A program made the translations under genes and the position numbers. This document shows, in pieces, positions 3,247 through 12,293 of a stretch of DNA of 49,554 bases. Location: the NCBI GenBank assembly GCA_013298775.1, contig JAAFIV010000034.1:1-49554 (forward strand). The letters run 5' to 3'. How positions within the stretch are numbered: position 1 is the stretch's first letter; every line of letters starts with the position of its first letter. The notes under the pieces are model-generated. The model was not told the DNA's origin, did no database searches, and saw only the letters and a program-made list of their open reading frames with translations. The DNA is from Ignavibacteria bacterium (lineage in GTDB: Bacteria > Bacteroidota > Ignavibacteria > Kapaibacteriales > UBA4661).

Positions 3247-4059
3247 CTATGAATCCAGCCACTCCTTAAACTGGCTTGCTTTTTCGCGCCCGATGATAAT
3301 CTCGTCGGGCGCGTTTGGTTTTACGACCACTTTGAGCTTGCCATTGAAGGAATTGAGAACATTTTGGATTGCCTGAATGTGCAAGACATACTGCCGGTTT
3401 GCGCGAAAGAAATGCGTAGGATTGAGGACAGAAGCCAAATCCTCAAGCGAAAAATCAACGGAGTAGCGTTTTGCCGCATTGGTAATGAGCCACGAAATTT
3501 TATGCTCGCTCACAAAATACGCAACATCAGCAACATCAATACTAACATAACCCGTTGCAGTTTGGACAAGGAAACGAGACTTGTAGGTTTTATGCGTTGC
3601 TGTGAGTGTTTGGAGTAATCCTTGAATATCTTGTGCATTTGTTTGTGGCAAGGATTGAATCTGAGCGGAGTTGTTTGTAAATAAAGCTCTCATTGCGGCG
3701 AACTTTTCCAAAGACTTCTCTAATGCTTGCTCTTCAATAGGCTTCAGCAAATAATCAATACTGTGAACTTGGAATGCTTTGAGTGCGTATTCGTCGTAAG
3801 CCGTTGTAAAAATAACAGGCGTTTGGAGGTTAATTTCATTGAAAATTTCAAAACTTATGCCGTCAGAAAGCTGAATATCAAGAAAAATGAGGTCTGTTTC
3901 GTTGCTTTGTTGGAAAAAGGTAATCGCCGTGCTGACGCTATCAAGCACTTCGTAAAACTCAGCACGTACGCCACTTTTCGCAAAGTAATCGCTCACAAGT
4001 TTTTGCAAACGATGCGCTGCACGTACTTCATCTTCAATGATGAGAATTTTCATAGCCAT
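3247..4059 (-). CDS. LytTR-family response regulator
   Basis: 270 residues. The N-terminal receiver domain (about 3-125) has the acidic pocket IIEDE, the phosphoacceptor D61 in LIFLDIQLSDG, the switch threonine in VIFTTAYDEYALKAF and the lysine in YLLKPIEE. The C-terminal LytTR DNA-binding domain (about 165-268) contains FRANRQYVLHIQAI and the terminal KVVVKPN...IIGREKASQFKEWL typical of the family. The start could be the ATG at 4059 or the one two codons later (MKILIIEDE). The cognate kinase is the gene just upstream on the same strand (4229-5335), separated by a fold-back repeat. It is the last gene of the RND efflux operon, so control of efflux or of an envelope response is the likely role; its target promoter is not visible. 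Confidence 0.93.
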   Translation of the reverse strand: MAMKILIIEDEVRAAHRLQKLVSDYFAKSGVRAEFYEVLDSVSTAITFFQQSNETDLIFLDIQLSDGISFEIFNEINLQTPVIFTTAYDEYALKAFQVHSIDYLLKPIEEQALEKSLEKFAAMRALFTNNSAQIQSLPQTNAQDIQGLLQTLTATHKTYKSRFLVQTATGYVSIDVADVAYFVSEHKISWLITNAAKRYSVDFSLEDLASVLNPTHFFRANRQYVLHIQAIQNVLNSFNGKLKVVVKPNAPDEIIIGREKASQFKEWLDS

Positions 4060-4228: not shown

Positions 4229-5335
4229 CTACACTGCAAGCTCTTCCATGCTTGATTCTGTCTTCATTTGTGCGCTCTGAGTCCGCTCATTTTCTTCATA
4301 CTTTAACGGCAAAAGTGGCAGCGTTACCGAAAACGTATTCTCGGTTTGTTGCACCTCAACGGGAAGAGGGGTAAGCAACGAGTAGCGATGGCGAATGTTC
4401 CGCAGTCCAAGATTCGTCGAGGTTGGGGGAGTTCTCTTGATTTGGAGCGCGTTTGAAACCGTGATAGTATGTTCTGTGGCGTAAATCTTCAATGAAAGCG
4501 GTTGCCGCTTGGAAATGATATTATGCTTTACCACATTTTCAACGCACAGCTGCAAGGCAAGCGGCGGCAAACCCAGATGTTCACTTGCTTCGGCAGTATC
4601 AATCGTTACACGAAGATTATCACCAAAGCGAAGTTCGTGCAAGTACAAATAAGCGCGTATAAACGTCAGTTCGTCCTCAAGCGGAATCAGGCTTGTGTCC
4701 TTGCTTTGCAACACATAACGATAAACATTCGATAATTCCTTCACAAACTTTGTTGCAAGTCGCGGCTCTTCTTCAATGAGGGCGGTGAGCGTATTCAAGC
4801 TGTTGAAGAGAAAATGCGGGTCAATTTGTTGCTTGAGAGCTTCATTTTGGGCTTCGAGCGAAACGCGCTTGAGTTCTTCGGTTTCTTGTAGTTGTTCCCT
4901 CCAGCGTTCAAAGAGCAACATTCCCACCTGCACAGCATTCATGCCGATTGCGACCACGAGCGCAAAGAGAATATTCGTTTTTATCAAATACACTTTTTCT
5001 TGTGTGTCGTAGCCGTAAATGAGAAGTTGCGAGAGCGTAAAAACATCAATCCAAATAAATGCGGTGAGAAATAAATGAGAAAGAATGAGCTTTTTGAGCT
5101 TCGTTTCAATCGGGAAATGCTGTTGCAACCAGACAAAAAGGCGTAAACTAATTTCCGAGCAAATGAGCGTATAAATAACGGAAGTGCCAATATCTACCAG
5201 AATCTTAAACGGTTCTGTGCGGACAAATTGCTGCCCGTATTCATCAGTCAAGCTGAGAATGTACCCCAATGACACAAATGTAAACGTCAGAAGCGGTACA
5301 AGAACAAACCGAATGAAACGAAACTGCTCTTTCAT
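4229..5335 (-). CDS. LytS/YehU-type sensor histidine kinase (His_kinase family)
   Basis: 368-residue inner-membrane kinase. About four hydrophobic segments occupy residues 8-140 (for example VLVPLLTFTFVSLGYILSL and LFALVVAIGMNAVQVGML). The phosphorylatable histidine is H174 in the diagnostic box QQIDPHFLFNSLNTL. The C-terminal ATPase domain has the N-box LQLCVENVVKHNI and a G-box around TNLGLRNIRHRY. There is no periplasmic sensor domain of note, so the signal is probably sensed in the membrane. The start follows the stop of the RND-TolC gene by 7 bp. An AAGGAG at 5346-5351, lying in the last codons of that gene, is placed to serve this ATG, which implies translational coupling. It pairs with the LytTR regulator downstream. 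Confidence 0.92.
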   Translation of the reverse strand: MKEQFRFIRFVLVPLLTFTFVSLGYILSLTDEYGQQFVRTEPFKILVDIGTSVIYTLICSEISLRLFVWLQQHFPIETKLKKLILSHLFLTAFIWIDVFTLSQLLIYGYDTQEKVYLIKTNILFALVVAIGMNAVQVGMLLFERWREQLQETEELKRVSLEAQNEALKQQIDPHFLFNSLNTLTALIEEEPRLATKFVKELSNVYRYVLQSKDTSLIPLEDELTFIRAYLYLHELRFGDNLRVTIDTAEASEHLGLPPLALQLCVENVVKHNIISKRQPLSLKIYATEHTITVSNALQIKRTPPTSTNLGLRNIRHRYSLLTPLPVEVQQTENTFSVTLPLLPLKYEENERTQSAQMKTESSMEELAV

Positions 5336-5342
5336 AGCTCAT

Positions 5343-8300
5343 TTACTCCTTTCCAAGTGCTTTGGCAATATCTGCCTCCGCAACGAGAATATCGTAAATT
5401 GCTTGTGAATAATTTGCCTTTGCTTGGGCGAGGGCTAAATCTGCGTCGGACACCTCAAGCTGTTTTGACAACCCTTGCTGAAAACGGCTGCGGATAAGGC
5501 GCAGACTGCGCTCTGCGGCTTGCACGGTGCGCTCTTGCGCCAGAAGACGCTGGGCAGCTTCGTTGTAGCTTGCTTCGGCGAGTTGAATTTCTGTGCCAAT
5601 CACGCTTTTTACAAAATCAAGACGCTTTTCCGCTTGTATTTTGGAAATCGTGGATTGCTGAACGCGGCTATCAGTGCGGAATCCGTTGAAAATTGGGACG
5701 TTTACTTGAATGCCCAGAAATGAACTTTGTGGAAACATTTGCTTGGAAAAGTCGAAATTATCTGCTTGCGAAACGATTTGATATTGTCCAAACGCCGCGA
5801 GTGAGGGCAGATATGCTGCTTGGTTGCTGGCAAGTTCAGCTGCCGAGAGGTCGCGCTGTAAGGAAAGTTGCTTCACATCGGGGCGAGTGCTGAGTGCGCC
5901 CGCAAGTTCGTTTTGCAGAGAACGCTGTGTTTCGGGCTTCGCTGCAAGCGTGAGGGAATCTGTCAAAGCAAGATTTTGTGCGCTGTTCAAGCCAAGCGAA
6001 ATTGCCAGCGCGGCGCGGGCAAGATTTGTTCCATTCTGAATTTTCGTCAGCATTGGGCGCAAATTCTCGACCGCAACAAACGCCCGAAGCGTGTCTGCCT
6101 CCGTTGCCAAGCCCTTCGCAAGCAAAGAACGCACTTGCGCAAGTGTTTCCTCACCGCGCGAAATATTTTGCCGCATCAGTTTTGCTTGCTCTTCCGCCAT
6201 GAGAACGTCGTAGTAGCTCTTTTTTACGTCCCGCGCCTTTTGCACACGAGCCGCACCAACACTCTCTTTAGCGAGTGTTTGACCAATCTCCGACATAATT
6301 CCAGCATGGCGCAAATCCTCCTGAATAAGCGGCATCTGCACACTTCCTGTGAGATTGTACGAATTTGCCAACCCCGCGCGAATGGCTTGCAATCTGCCTT
6401 CTTCAGGAACTAAGCCTTCTACGGGGTCGAATTTGAAGGCAGGAAAAAAGAACACGGGAACTTGAATATTCCGAATGTATTGCAAACTTGCTGAGACCTG
6501 TGGCAGAAACGCGCTTCGTACCTCGCGTGTACGCTGCACCGCTTTATCTTCCTCCAAACGTGCTATTTGCAATTCGGGATTGTTTTCCATTGCCATTTTC
6601 ACAGCATCCGAAAGAGAAAGAGCTTGTGCGCCTGAGGTTTGCTTGGTTGGAAGGCTGTTCGGTTGCGCAAACATTGTTTGTTCTGCAAAAGTAAGCGCGA
6701 CGAGGAGAATGAGCGTTTTTGCTACCGTTTGCGCCGCGCCGTTGCCATTTTTCGCATGACCATTTTTACCATTTTCGGAATGACCGTTTTCAACGTGCAA
6801 TTCCTCGGAAAGCCCATTATTGCTTACGTTGTGGGTATGTATTTCTCCGTGCATTTTTCCTTTTCCGCTTAGTTTTTGTGCAATGCGAAGAGTGAATGCC
6901 CGTAGATTTTCAATATCCACATAGATAGTTGGAACAATGAGCAAGGTAAGGAACATTGAGCTTGTGAGACCGCCAATGAGCGCGACCGACAAGCCTGATT
7001 TCCACTCGCCGCCCGCGCCGGATGAGAGCGCAATCGGGAGCATTCCAATCACCATTGCAATCGTGGTCATCAAAATTGGGCGAAGGCGGGTACGTCCCGC
7101 GTCCATGATTGCCTCGCGCACAGTCATTCCTTCGGCACGGGCAGCATTGGTGCGGTCCACAAGGAGAATTGCATTTTTTGCCACCAAGCCAATCATCATA
7201 ATTATTCCCAAAATCGAAAAGATATTGAGCGATTTCATTGCCAACGCCAACGCCAAAAGCGCACCAACCATCGCAACCGGAATCGAAAATAGAACGATGA
7301 ACGGATAGACCCACGAGTTGTAGAGCGCGACCATGAGCAAATACACGAATAAAATTGCTGCAAGTAAGGCAATTCCGAGACTTCCGAAAGCATCACCTTG
7401 ATTTTCTAAATCGCCCAAGTAATCTACCTTGATACCTGCTGGAAGCCGCGTCGTTGCGAGCTTTGTTTTCAATTCTTCACCCATTGTGCCGCTTGGAACG
7501 CCGATTGCTTTTGAAATAACGGTAATCGAAGCATTACGATTGCGGCGGTCAAGTTTTGAGGGACTTTGCGCTTGTTGGATGGTGGCGAATTGCTGCAATT
7601 CGATTTTTTGCCCCATCATGTTGGTAAAGGTTAAGGTCTTCAAACGCTCTGTTTGTGCGCGGTCTGCGGCATCGTAGCGAATACGCACGGGATATTCTGT
7701 TCCTGCAAGGCGGATTTTACCGTCGTCGTTTCCAGCTAATGCTGTGCGCGTTGCAAAGCCGACTTCTTCCAGCGACAAACCAAAACTCGCCATCTTCTCG
7801 CGGTCAATTTCTACGCGGGTTTCAGGCTTTGTATCTTCAACCGACAAGCGCACATCCGCCGAGCCTTTTATTGTTTTTAGCACATCAGCAACGATGCGCC
7901 CTGCAGCCAGCACCGAATCTCGGTTCGCGCCAAAGAGCAGCACTTGAATTGGTGCGTCGTCCGCACCGCCAAACATTCCAATTGGCGCGACGCGAGCTTT
8001 TACGCCAGGCGTTTCTTGCGCAATGAGTTTGAGTTTTAACGCCAAACGTGCCGCGTCTTGGTCGAGGCGTGTGCGCTGGGCTTTTGGCGTAAGCGTTACG
8101 TCAATGTACGCGCCATTGCTCACGCCTTCAGCATCGAAGCCGCTTGAGGTCGTGCCGATGTTGGTGTTCAGCTTTTTTACTTCGGGCATTTTGGTAAATT
8201 TTTCCTCAATTTTTCGCACAACCGCGTTTGTTTGCTCAATCGGCGTGCCGGGCGGTAAGGTGAGCGAAACCGATAACTCGCCTCTGTCCGAGCCGGCAAC

Positions 8301-9983
8301 GAACTCGCTACCAACAAAACCAAAGGCGGGAAGCATGAACGATGCCACAAGCAAGGTAAATGCGCTCGCTGCAACGGTTTTACGATGGTCTAATGCCCAC
8401 GCTAATACGCCCGCATACCAATTCGTGAGGCGGTCGAACAGAGTTTCAAACCACAATCCGAAGCGTCCCATGAGCGTATTTTTTGTTAAATGCTCAAGGC
8501 GCGAAAAGCGGGAAGCCAGCATCGGCGTTAGCGTGAAGGACACGAGCAAACTGAGCAGCGTGGAAATCACGACCACAAGCGCGAATTGCCGCATAATGTC
8601 GCCAATCAAGCCAGAAACCAGCGAGAGCGGCAGGAACACGACGACATCCACAAGTGTAATGGCAAGCGCGGAGAAGCCAATGTCCATGCGCCCTTTGAGC
8701 GCGGCAGAGCGAGCATCCATGCCGCGTTCAAGCTGTTGGTAAATACTTTCCAGCACCACAATCGAATCATCCACGAGAATCCCGACCACGAGCGACATTG
8801 CAAGCAGCGTCATCAAGTTCAGCGAAAAATTGAATAAGTACATCGCAATAAACGTGCTGACGAGCGAGGCGGGAATAGAAATCATCACAATCAAGGAATT
8901 GCGCCATGAGTGGAGGAAGACCATCATCACAAGCGCGACCAGTACGATTGCTATTTGCAAGTCGTGAACAACAGCATCGGCGGCTTCGAGCGTAAATTCC
9001 GCTCCATCTTGCGCAACGGTAAAGGAAATGCCATTTTGCTTGTATTCATCCTGCAATTTCACAATTTCCTCGCGCACCAAACGGCTTACTTCCACCGTAT
9101 TTGCGTCGGTTTGCTTTTGTACGAGAATGCCAACTGCGTCCTTGCCCTGCAAGCGCGACATCGTTTCTATGTCCTTCACGCCGTCGCTCACGTTGGCAAC
9201 GTCGCTTAATTTTACCACGCTCTGTGAAACACCGTTTTGTGCTGCAACGCTTGAAACGACGAGGTTTTTGAGGTCGTCAATGCTTTCAAATTTCCCGCGC
9301 ACACGCACACCAAATTGCGCATCTTTATCGTTCACTTTTCCTGCTGGAACGTCGAGATTTGCGCGGCGCAACGCCTCCGAGACCTGTACAATGGACATAT
9401 TATAGGCGCGGAGTTTGTCGGCATCAACGCTGATGCTGATTTCGCGCTCGGTCAAGCCGATAATGGAAATTTGCGACACGCCTTTTATCTGCGCCAAGCG
9501 AGGTTTTACCTGCTCTTTGAGGATTTGTGAAAATTCACGCTCTTCCAGCGAACTTGTTGCCGAAATGCGCAGAACGGGGAGTTCATCAAGCTGAAACTTC
9601 AGTACCATCGGGCGTTTCACGCCAAGCGGGAGGTCGCCGAGTTCATTGATTTTGCGCTGTACGTCTTGCGTTGCGAGGTCGGCATTGGCGGTTTGTTGAA
9701 ATTCCACGAACACGGTTGAAACGTTCTCGCCAGAGTTGGAAAAAACGCGCTTGAGCTTGCTCACACCCGCGACGGATTCTTCGATGCGCTTGGTGACGCT
9801 GTTTTCCACTTCGCTCGGACTCGCGCCTGGATACAGCGTAATCACGGTAACGAAGGGCGAAGAAATTTTCGGTAATAACTCGTAGGAAAGCTGATTATAG
9901 CTGAAAATGCCCAGAAAACCGAGTACCGTGAAGAGAACGATGATGAGAATTGGGCGTTTTATGGATAATTCGGTGATAGTCAT
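5343..9983 (-). CDS. RND efflux transporter fused to a TolC-type outer-membrane channel
   Basis: A single 1546-residue ORF. Residues 1 to about 1030 are a complete HAE1-type RND pump: TM1 in IKRPILIIVLFTVLGFLGI, porter domains, the TM4 proton-relay DD in GILVDDSIVVLES, and a second half ending LTLLIVPTIYVDIENLR. A linker rich in His, Asn and Gly (about 1040-1085) follows. A hydrophobic stretch (TLILLVALTFAEQTMFA|Q, ending near residue 1105) looks like an internal signal peptide with a signal-peptidase-type end. The rest (ALSLSDAVKMAMENNPELQ onward, about 430 residues) is an outer-membrane efflux protein with its two repeats. The RND C-terminus is cytoplasmic, so the internal hydrophobic segment would re-export the channel domain; cleavage there would release two proteins. 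The adaptor lies upstream and the two-component genes directly downstream. Confidence 0.93.
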   Translation of the reverse strand: MTITELSIKRPILIIVLFTVLGFLGIFSYNQLSYELLPKISSPFVTVITLYPGASPSEVENSVTKRIEESVAGVSKLKRVFSNSGENVSTVFVEFQQTANADLATQDVQRKINELGDLPLGVKRPMVLKFQLDELPVLRISATSSLEEREFSQILKEQVKPRLAQIKGVSQISIIGLTEREISISVDADKLRAYNMSIVQVSEALRRANLDVPAGKVNDKDAQFGVRVRGKFESIDDLKNLVVSSVAAQNGVSQSVVKLSDVANVSDGVKDIETMSRLQGKDAVGILVQKQTDANTVEVSRLVREEIVKLQDEYKQNGISFTVAQDGAEFTLEAADAVVHDLQIAIVLVALVMMVFLHSWRNSLIVMISIPASLVSTFIAMYLFNFSLNLMTLLAMSLVVGILVDDSIVVLESIYQQLERGMDARSAALKGRMDIGFSALAITLVDVVVFLPLSLVSGLIGDIMRQFALVVVISTLLSLLVSFTLTPMLASRFSRLEHLTKNTLMGRFGLWFETLFDRLTNWYAGVLAWALDHRKTVAASAFTLLVASFMLPAFGFVGSEFVAGSDRGELSVSLTLPPGTPIEQTNAVVRKIEEKFTKMPEVKKLNTNIGTTSSGFDAEGVSNGAYIDVTLTPKAQRTRLDQDAARLALKLKLIAQETPGVKARVAPIGMFGGADDAPIQVLLFGANRDSVLAAGRIVADVLKTIKGSADVRLSVEDTKPETRVEIDREKMASFGLSLEEVGFATRTALAGNDDGKIRLAGTEYPVRIRYDAADRAQTERLKTLTFTNMMGQKIELQQFATIQQAQSPSKLDRRNRNASITVISKAIGVPSGTMGEELKTKLATTRLPAGIKVDYLGDLENQGDAFGSLGIALLAAILFVYLLMVALYNSWVYPFIVLFSIPVAMVGALLALALAMKSLNIFSILGIIMMIGLVAKNAILLVDRTNAARAEGMTVREAIMDAGRTRLRPILMTTIAMVIGMLPIALSSGAGGEWKSGLSVALIGGLTSSMFLTLLIVPTIYVDIENLRAFTLRIAQKLSGKGKMHGEIHTHNVSNNGLSEELHVENGHSENGKNGHAKNGNGAAQTVAKTLILLVALTFAEQTMFAQPNSLPTKQTSGAQALSLSDAVKMAMENNPELQIARLEEDKAVQRTREVRSAFLPQVSASLQYIRNIQVPVFFFPAFKFDPVEGLVPEEGRLQAIRAGLANSYNLTGSVQMPLIQEDLRHAGIMSEIGQTLAKESVGAARVQKARDVKKSYYDVLMAEEQAKLMRQNISRGEETLAQVRSLLAKGLATEADTLRAFVAVENLRPMLTKIQNGTNLARAALAISLGLNSAQNLALTDSLTLAAKPETQRSLQNELAGALSTRPDVKQLSLQRDLSAAELASNQAAYLPSLAAFGQYQIVSQADNFDFSKQMFPQSSFLGIQVNVPIFNGFRTDSRVQQSTISKIQAEKRLDFVKSVIGTEIQLAEASYNEAAQRLLAQERTVQAAERSLRLIRSRFQQGLSKQLEVSDADLALAQAKANYSQAIYDILVAEADIAKALGKE

Positions 9984-10366: not shown

Positions 10367-11179
10367 CTAGACCAATTCTCCTACGTGTATATCGGCAATT
10401 TTTGTTGAAATACTCTTGATAAATGCAGAGGGATTATCAACTGAGATAGTAAAGACTTTTACTATTTTTTTTCGACCATAATAGCCGAGAAAAGGAATCT
10501 CTGTGTGGCAAGCAATGACTACATTGCCAGCAGATAACGTACTAAAACTTGGCACCGCTTCTTGATGCTGCAATCCCTCCTCATTCCTTGATTGTGGGAC
10601 TTTTTGCAGCAGTGATACCGAAGAAATTGCAGAATAAGGAATCTCTACATTCCAGCGAATACCGAGACGGAATGCAAGATGGTCTTGGCGAAGAACGATT
10701 GGGCGTTTTATAATCGCAACACAATCTGCTAATAATGCAAGCATTCTATACGCACTGAGAATTGTTACAACAGTAGCAACGGTGATGTTTACAAGGTATA
10801 GAAGTAAAAAGTGAACTCCGATAAGTTCCACAACAACAACAGCGAGTAATATAGGCATCAAACTACCATATCCTGAGCTTTTATGCGTTGTGTAGGCTTC
10901 TTCATGCTGCGTGCTTTCGGTGTTTCCTTGCCAAAAGAACAGCGCATATCGCAGCATTGCTGTTTCAAAGGAAAGAATGTTCGTGATAGCATTGATGCGC
11001 CCTTTGAAGAAAATATCTGCAAAACTTTGGCGCAGATTCAGCAAGAAATCACGCTTTTTTGCGTCAAGTATTTTGTAGCGCGTAACAACTTCTTTGAGCT
11101 TTTTCAAGGAATACAAAGCGAAAACTATCTCAAAGGTGAGCATCGCGTACCCCAGATATTTCAATGCGTCCAGCAACAT
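10367..11179 (-). CDS. Membrane protein of unknown function in the efflux operon
   Basis: 270 residues from the ATG at 11179 (MLLDALKYLGYAML); a longer reading starts at a TTG overlapping the adaptor gene's end. There is one hydrophobic segment near the N-terminus (YAMLTFEIVFALYSL) and a long central hydrophobic pair (LMPILLAVVVVELIGVHFLLLY and VATVVTILSAYRMLALL). The C-terminal ~100 residues are soluble and strand-rich (IVLRQDHLAFRLGIRWNVEIP, then VVIACHTEIPFLGYYGRKK), which recalls a PH-like membrane domain, but the resemblance is weak. It lies between the adaptor (end at 11235) and the RND fusion on the same strand, so a link to efflux or to envelope stress sensing is possible. No named family was recognised. 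Confidence 0.7.
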   Translation of the reverse strand: MLLDALKYLGYAMLTFEIVFALYSLKKLKEVVTRYKILDAKKRDFLLNLRQSFADIFFKGRINAITNILSFETAMLRYALFFWQGNTESTQHEEAYTTHKSSGYGSLMPILLAVVVVELIGVHFLLLYLVNITVATVVTILSAYRMLALLADCVAIIKRPIVLRQDHLAFRLGIRWNVEIPYSAISSVSLLQKVPQSRNEEGLQHQEAVPSFSTLSAGNVVIACHTEIPFLGYYGRKKIVKVFTISVDNPSAFIKSISTKIADIHVGELV

Positions 11180-11234
11180 ACAGCATGAGAAAAAGTGAAT
11201 AAAACAGTTCAAAGCTACGATTGTTCCAGACGTT

Positions 11235-12293
11235 TTACTGCACAACTACTTCCGAGCCGTTGCGGACATTATTTTGTCCTGCTGTAATCACCCGCTCGCC
11301 ACGCTCAAGACCGCTTAAAACCTCGATATTTGTTCCTTTTTCTGCGCCAAGTTCAATCGTGCGTTCTTTTGCAAACGTTTTTCCGTTTTCTTGCGTAACA
11401 ACGTACACACTGGCGCGTTTGCTGCTGCCGATGAGTGCCAAGCGAGGAATCATCAGGGCTGTGCGAGGAGCTTTGTTTTCAAGGTAGATTTTCGCGCTCA
11501 TGCCTGATTTTATCGGATGCGTAGAGCTGTTTGGTAAGAGAACTTCTATCGGATAATTATGCGTTTCATTGCCGCGAACACTGATAAATGCTACTGTTCC
11601 CGTGAATTTTTCGCCCGCATACACATCCACCGACACGCGCACCTTTTCGCCTGTGCGCAGCTTCAAAACGGCTTGTTCTGGCACATTAGCGCGAAGTTTC
11701 AATGTGGAAATATCCACCACCGTCGCAACGGGCATTCCGGGCATAACCATCGTGCCGACGCTGACTTGCCGCTCGACAACCGTGCCAGAAATGGGGGATT
11801 TAATCACAGCGTCTTGAAATTGCCGCTCCGCCCCGATAAACTGAGCTTTCGCGCTTTGATAGCCAAGCTGTGCGCCTTCCAGTTCGTTTTCCGAAGCGTT
11901 GTTTTCTTTGCGCAATGCCTCCAAGCGGTCAAGGTCGCGCTTTGCTTTGTCCATGTTAGTTTTTGCAAGCAAATACGATGAATATTTTAGCGTCGTGTCC
12001 ACTTTTACAAGTGCAGAACCCGCATGGACACGCTCGCCGAGCGATACATAGACTTTAATTGCCCGCCCTTGCGTTTCCGCCATTACGGGAACTTCATTGT
12101 TCGCATTGATTGTTCCAGAGAACGTGAGGCTTTCGGTCAAGGTTTGCTCTTCCACGCTTTGCGCTTGCACGTTGATAGCGAGATTCATCGGCTGTTCCGC
12201 CTTTGCTTCCATTGTGGCTTTATTGCGCATAAGCAAAAACGTGATGCCGCCGCCTAAAAGGAGAACAACGATAATTGTTTTGAGTGCTTTCAT
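11235..12293 (-). CDS. RND efflux membrane fusion (HlyD/AcrA-type) periplasmic adaptor
   Basis: 352 residues. The N-terminal membrane anchor (IIVVLLLGGGITFLL, residues 7-21) is followed by the split lipoyl domain: GRAIKVYVSLGERVHAGSALVKVD on one side and AVIKSPISGTVVERQVSVGTMV on the other. Between them is a short alpha-helical hairpin (KTNMDKAKRDLDRLEALRKE). A beta-barrel domain (LRANVPEQAVLKLRTGEKV) and a membrane-proximal domain follow. It bridges the inner-membrane RND pump and the outer-membrane channel; here both partners are encoded by one downstream ORF on the same strand. No lipobox cysteine is present, so it is anchored by its N-terminal helix. The adaptor precedes the pump, the common order. 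Confidence 0.95.
   Translation of the reverse strand: MKALKTIIVVLLLGGGITFLLMRNKATMEAKAEQPMNLAINVQAQSVEEQTLTESLTFSGTINANNEVPVMAETQGRAIKVYVSLGERVHAGSALVKVDTTLKYSSYLLAKTNMDKAKRDLDRLEALRKENNASENELEGAQLGYQSAKAQFIGAERQFQDAVIKSPISGTVVERQVSVGTMVMPGMPVATVVDISTLKLRANVPEQAVLKLRTGEKVRVSVDVYAGEKFTGTVAFISVRGNETHNYPIEVLLPNSSTHPIKSGMSAKIYLENKAPRTALMIPRLALIGSSKRASVYVVTQENGKTFAKERTIELGAEKGTNIEVLSGLERGERVITAGQNNVRNGSEVVVQ

Follow-up and report, generated by a model that had tools for sequence, protein, structure and literature searches.

An RND pump and a TolC-type channel in one open frame: a probable polyprotein with a putative internal signal peptide in Ignavibacteria

Organization of the locus

The window (the whole stretch of DNA analysed here, 49,554 nucleotides) carries on its minus strand, at 5343-9983, a single open frame of 1546 codons with an ATG start. 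An AcrB-like RND pump comes first in this frame, followed by a linker rich in His, Asn and Gly, a short hydrophobic segment ending in TMFA|Q, and a TolC-type channel (OMF). Pfam searches with the 1546-aa product gave 867.6 bits for ACR_tran at residues 4-1023 and 160.1 bits for OEP, which matched in two stretches. The hydropathy profile shows the 12 peaks of an RND pump (KD19 1.88-2.85) and a 13th, weaker peak (1.58) at residues 1082-1100. The parts of the fused gene and its neighbors are listed in Table 1.

Table 1. Parts of the fused gene and neighboring genes in the window
Feature	Position	Strand	Evidence
RND pump part, residues 4-1023, AcrB-like, 12 TM peaks	6915..9974	minus	Pfam ACR_tran, hydropathy, MdtB relative
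Linker, residues 1025-1081, hydrophilic, His/Asn/Gly-rich, presumed cytoplasmic	6741..6911	minus	identity, in-frame gaps, dN/dS, pLDDT
Putative internal signal peptide, residues 1082-1106, core LILLVALTFA, end TMFA	6666..6740	minus	hydropathy, +1 Gln, G008 OMF
TolC-type OMF part, residues 1107-1546, and stop codon	5343..6665	minus	Pfam OEP, sequence matches, Foldseek
Separate periplasmic adaptor (MFP) of the pump	11235..12293	minus	TIGR01730, 219 bits, over cut-off
Histidine kinase gene, 7 bp downstream of the fusion	4229..5335	minus	PF06580
LytTR response regulator gene	3247..4059	minus	PF00072 and PF04397
292-codon ORF between adaptor and fusion	10367-11245	minus	without NCBIfam match

The adaptor, the fusion, the kinase and the regulator look like one regulated efflux operon, whose genes would be transcribed together. 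A kinase-like frame of similar size also follows the fusion in four relatives (G001, G005, G006 and G007). For the 292-codon ORF, no frame of similar size was found at that place in G005 or G007.

The two halves of the fused protein

The pump half matches ACR_tran over its full length (profile positions 2-1019 of 1021). Its best solved relative is MdtB (2.9e-122), and AcrB-like structures are the nearest. The pump scores below the NCBIfam cut-offs of the HAE1-type models (TIGR00915: 565.7 of 940.35 bits; NF033617: 730.4 of 1250 bits) as well as that of the HME (CusA/CzcA) model (TIGR00914: 423.6 of 701.45 bits). It is therefore called HAE1-type only, a label derived from a tree of RND pumps and from its TM4 Asp-Asp and TM10 Lys motifs, which we take to be a sign of an HAE1-type pump.

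The channel half matches the chains of TolC, SilC, CusC and OprM by sequence. An AF2 model of residues 1025-1546, built from 7 rows, has a mean pLDDT of 69.7, and most of the linker falls below 50. When this model was compared with the PDB by Foldseek, 40 of the best 41 ranked matches were plainly OMFs (by description or entry family), with TM-scores of about 0.3. Given these TM-scores and the mean pLDDT, support for the OMF fold is weak, and the Foldseek result appears to support the OMF family more than the geometry.

The linker and the putative internal signal peptide

Residues 1044-1083 comprise 6 His, 8 Asn and 7 Gly (21/40, manual count). When the window is compared with G001, G006 and G007, the pump is 77-79% and the OMF 62-65% identical, against 22-30% for the linker (1041-1081) and 8-20% for the signal region. 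Between the window and G005, the linker contains gaps of 12 and 24 nt, both in frame, and dN/dS is 0.043 for the pump, 0.25 for the linker, 0.51 for the signal region and 0.030 for the OMF. This dN/dS pattern marks the linker as translated, loosely constrained sequence between two strongly constrained domains. The same values bear on the idea that the fusion is a tolerated relic, of which the OMF half is not exported while another channel serves the pump. Other OEP proteins are indeed present in the genome, where 2 of the 18 OEP stretches over the cut-off lie in the fusion gene. However, strong purifying selection acts on the OMF half, which is also conserved within the genus, and this makes a relic very improbable.

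In the putative cleavage site TMFA|Q, TMFA corresponds to residues 1103-1106 and is followed by Q1107, so that the predicted cut lies between bases 6666 and 6665. The segment in the window has a hydrophobic core and Ala at -1; the Met at -3 is atypical and the n-region is weakly charged. The 14 residues preceding the core contain two Lys or Arg in the window and in G005, one in G001 and in G006, and three in G007. An alignment of the window with these four relatives shows the hydrophobic core and the A|Q site retained in all five fusions, and the Gln at +1 is the sole invariant column upstream of the OMF domain in a 7-row alignment that includes two separate OMFs. A site rule blind to the +1 residue placed Gln at +1 in four of the five fusions: in G001 the chosen site lies nine residues earlier and is not followed by Gln. 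In G007 the chosen site lies two residues before the aligned one. The 13th hydropathy peak and the retained A|Q support the signal-peptide-like character that had been proposed for this segment. The segment is most simply read as the old N-terminal signal peptide of the OMF, since a separate OMF in a genome of another genus (G008) starts with a signal peptide of its own, ending in VFA|Q, at the equivalent place.

PMC5837995 describes the Q-rule for Bacteroidetes and reports that it does not hold generally across the FCB group. A signal-peptide census of this genome covered 20 stretches (400 kb; C1, C12) and the window, with a rule-based finder blind to the +1 residue. Among 327 ORFs, 59 signal peptides were called by rule, with Gln at +1 in 24 of them versus 4 at +2, from which it follows that the kapabacterial host obeys the Bacteroidetes Q-rule. 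Q1107 is thus a Gln at +1 in an organism where this is common. One signal peptidase I gene was found in the genome. A glutaminyl cyclase was not identified there; the broad M28 family, searched for on this account, was represented by one match, in a 564-codon frame.

Relatives in the genus and family

The linker and OMF part were used as a query against 60 relatives and the genome itself. Four of the seven other genomes of the same genus (G001, G005, G006 and G007) carry the fusion, with open frames of 1553, 1553, 1568 and 1636. The remaining three gave a 75-residue fragment at a contig end (G002) or distant OMFs alone, with 22-26% identity (G003 and G004). G009, of the same family, contained no close match to this query. 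The matching records are Candidatus Kapaibacterium and Ignavibacteria MAGs with differing isolate names. Together with the frame and the Pfam matches, the four same-genus carriers bear out the original observation that pump and channel share one ORF. Orthologues in separate assemblies, rather than raw reads, speak against the stop or frameshift in the linker that would have refuted it. The fusion is real, and assembly error is not its cause.

In G008, which belongs to another genus of the same family, the parts are separate (L051:4857-13136): adaptor and pump form a gene pair, and the OMF, kinase and regulator genes are divergent from this pair. In a 14-row RND tree the G008 pump adjoins the clade of fused pumps with moderate support (SH-aLRT 89), and the unfused paralogue of the window genome lies outside. 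This divergent layout and the position of the G008 pump suggest a rearrangement. Most likely, the fusion would have arisen through a placement of the pump gene in front of the OMF gene, whereby the OMF signal peptide became internal.

Fusions with a lipobox junction

A second type of internal signal was found in G052 (L109:5709-10268, minus strand; further loci of this group, L164-L166), in a search that scored 2 candidates per genome and listed the strongest matches. Here, a NodT-type OMF follows an HAE-like pump in the same frame, and the junction GLQS|CKVGPDY is an internal lipobox. Matches were obtained in eight of the 23 genomes of the family. The lipobox fusion is shared by G342, and the same junction occurs in G340 on a contig that ends early. 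In G339, G341, G059 and G343 the OMF is a separate frame with an N-terminal lipobox; the eighth match is a distant OMF in G033. A search of 247 genomes with TIGR01845 gave one frame of more than 1000 codons among the matches listed, that of G052. In each type of fusion the internal signal is of the class expected for the OMF that follows, which suggests that the internal segments work as signals.

Alternatively, translation of the OMF could begin for the most part at an internal start within the linker, in which case the read-through fusion would be incidental. Start-like codons do occur in the linker of the window (an in-frame ATG at codon 1044 and a TTG at codon 1062) and in those of G005, G001 and G007, and ATG codons lie near the lipobox junctions of G052, G342 and G340. 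However, the ATG at codon 1044 has no counterpart in G005, where an ATG is found at codon 1038. In G006, a search for ATG, GTG and TTG between the end of TM12 and codon 1097, a position within the core, found none, so that none of these codons could give a full signal peptide. An internal start also leaves unexplained why there is no stop codon between the genes in five assemblies. As the main source of the OMF it is accordingly regarded as improbable, although some separate initiation at codon 1044 of the window, or near the lipobox junctions, may occur.

Fusions across the phylum

A search of 148 genomes with the CusA/CzcA model, limited to 4 scored candidates per genome so that the counts are lower bounds, gave at least 66 frames of at least 1437 codons among the matches listed, alongside unfused ones near 1050. 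Among these listed matches, 65 of the 66 long frames are RND-OMF fusions, and by our own count at least 54 of the 148 sampled genomes have one or more. The related fusions that had been guessed to exist in other Bacteroidota are therefore not rare. The other long frame (L091 in G186, 1777 codons) is a CusA-type RND without such a fusion; as it ends about 20 residues past TM12, its extra length lies upstream of the pump.

The 65 CusA/CzcA-type fusions were aligned with the G052 fusion (alignment A3, 66 rows, L091 left out; identical or near-identical rows such as L154-L157 are included). OEP was present in all 66 rows and the end of ACR_tran in 65. The two best-conserved junction columns are the Gln at the putative +1 (64/66) and the Ala at -1 (57/66); the two rows that depart from Gln at +1 are L111 (A|D) and L109 (lipobox). 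A conserved putative cleavage site, for which a survey of the phylum had been proposed, is apparent at the level of sequence. As MAFFT may pull Gln residues into one column, the junction sites were also chosen blind to the +1 residue. A first TM12 pattern placed 60 frames (L091 included) and left seven without an anchor, with Gln at +1 in 48/60. With a looser pattern, an anchor was assigned in 65 of 67 (without L091 and L109), which gave 61 unique junctions, with L141 mis-anchored. In this set Gln occurs at +1 in 47/61, versus 2-14/61 at the positions from +2 to +12. Given the number of genomes with fusions and the conservation of the +1 Gln, the window gene exemplifies a phylum-wide type of fusion. 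The view that it is an oddity of one genome was rejected on account of these fusions and the four carriers in the genus.

Similar frames are found on plasmids, with coverage of at least 80% of a CusA-type fusion in 40 of the 4570 records that matched. Of the 25 records listed, 23 are annotated as one CusA/CzcA or CzcA CDS. All 25 carry genus names of Bacteroidota, and for three of them the record taxonomy confirms this. Uninterrupted frames occur in the complete plasmids of Spirosoma linguale DSM 74 (1480 aa, ASA|Q), Runella slithyformis DSM 19594 (1446 aa, VQA|Q) and Haliscomenobacter hydrossis DSM 1100 (1451 aa, LNA|Q). These plasmids of culture-collection strains also bear on an assembly or sequencing artefact, for which it speaks that every nameable carrier of the HAE1-type fusion is a metagenome assembly. 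As the same fusion is present in five assemblies with diverged linkers, and as analogous CusA-type fusions occur in complete plasmids, the chance of an artefact is negligible and this explanation was rejected.

The RND-OMF fusion as such is therefore ordinary in databases, where it is annotated as an ordinary single gene. What is new here is the HAE1-type pump and the long low-complexity linker within a kind of fusion that databases already hold. A literature search of partial coverage found no description of an RND-OMF fusion or of its internal signal.

Proposed maturation of the fused protein

The gene quite probably makes an RND-OMF polyprotein that is cut by signal peptidase I, yielding pump and channel 1:1 and leaving the signal peptide on the pump. 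The pump half would first insert into the membrane through 12 TM helices, leaving its C-terminus on the cytoplasmic side. Past the linker, the former N-terminal signal peptide of the OMF would re-engage Sec, and signal peptidase I is predicted to cut after A1106. The released OMF, with Gln at +1, would go to the outer membrane. Unless trimmed off, the signal peptide would remain at the C-terminus of the pump and form a 13th hydrophobic segment. The separately made adaptor would join pump and channel. The likely benefit would be the 1:1 synthesis of the two proteins, which matches their 3:3 ratio in these machines. The topology originally put forward (cytoplasmic RND end, re-entry into export, release of the channel) is supported by these considerations as a predicted topology. 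The accompanying proposal of a bacterial polyprotein stands as the best explanation, with the cleavage step itself deduced.

Alternatively, the hydrophobic segment may be an uncut 13th TM helix by which the OMF remains covalently tethered to the pump. The length of the uncharged runs differs among the fusions: the 21 residues of G006 are long enough for a TM anchor and G001 has 17, whereas the window and G005, with 11-12 residues, have rather short runs for such an anchor. An uncut chain would have about 17 residues, or at most about 6 nm, between the membrane and the first OMF helix (near residue 1124 in the AF2 model). For MexAB-OprM, PMC4754349 gives membranes about 23 nm apart, with 7 nm for MexB, a gap of about 6 nm and 10 nm for OprM. 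If the architecture is like that of MexAB-OprM as given there, the tether could not span the roughly 13 nm to the near end of the OMF, and cutting is likely for this reason. A tether also leaves the kept A|Q and the internal lipobox unexplained. The uncut helix is thus considered unlikely, and cleavage by signal peptidase I is the preferred reading.

Descriptions of tripartite efflux pumps present them as three proteins, each made separately. On balance, the fusions would rather suggest that Bacteroidota build many RND pumps as polyproteins: after TM12 an internal A|Q or lipobox signal re-enters Sec, the channel is freed, the spent signal becomes a 13th TM segment and synthesis is 1:1, with at least three origins in separate RND lineages. 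This phylum-wide regularity of the internal signal is a more interesting result than the single fusion. If it holds true, a virus-like polyprotein supplies two parts of one machine, destined for two membranes, in equal amounts, and many database entries named 'CusA/CzcA RND transporter' in fact stand for two proteins. A direct and cheap readout of cleavage would be the N-terminus that the OMF has in cultured strains.

Comparison with known systems

The FbcH cytochrome b/c1 polyprotein of Bradyrhizobium combines a membrane protein with an exported one in a single chain, which is cut at a signal sequence within it. FbcH differs in that its proteins are unrelated to those in the window and in that both of them remain associated with the inner membrane. 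A literature search for this precedent found no paper. AcrAB-TolC and MexAB-OprM share with the window the pump and OMF families and the separate adaptor, whereas their pump and channel are encoded by separate genes. The HAE-like/NodT-type fusions of G052, G342 and G340, genomes of the same order, are also RND-OMF fusions and have a signal sequence at the junction. However, they belong to a different RND lineage in the tree, and the lipobox Cys replaces the A|Q. The CusA/CzcA-type fusions (annotated as 'CusA/CzcA family heavy metal efflux RND transporter', about 1440-1500 aa) likewise contain an RND part followed by an OMF, a hydrophobic segment after TM12 and an A|Q junction. They differ from the window in that the pump is a metal (HME) pump and in that the median distance from TM12 to the core is 17 residues, compared to 58-117 in the five fusions of the window's genus.
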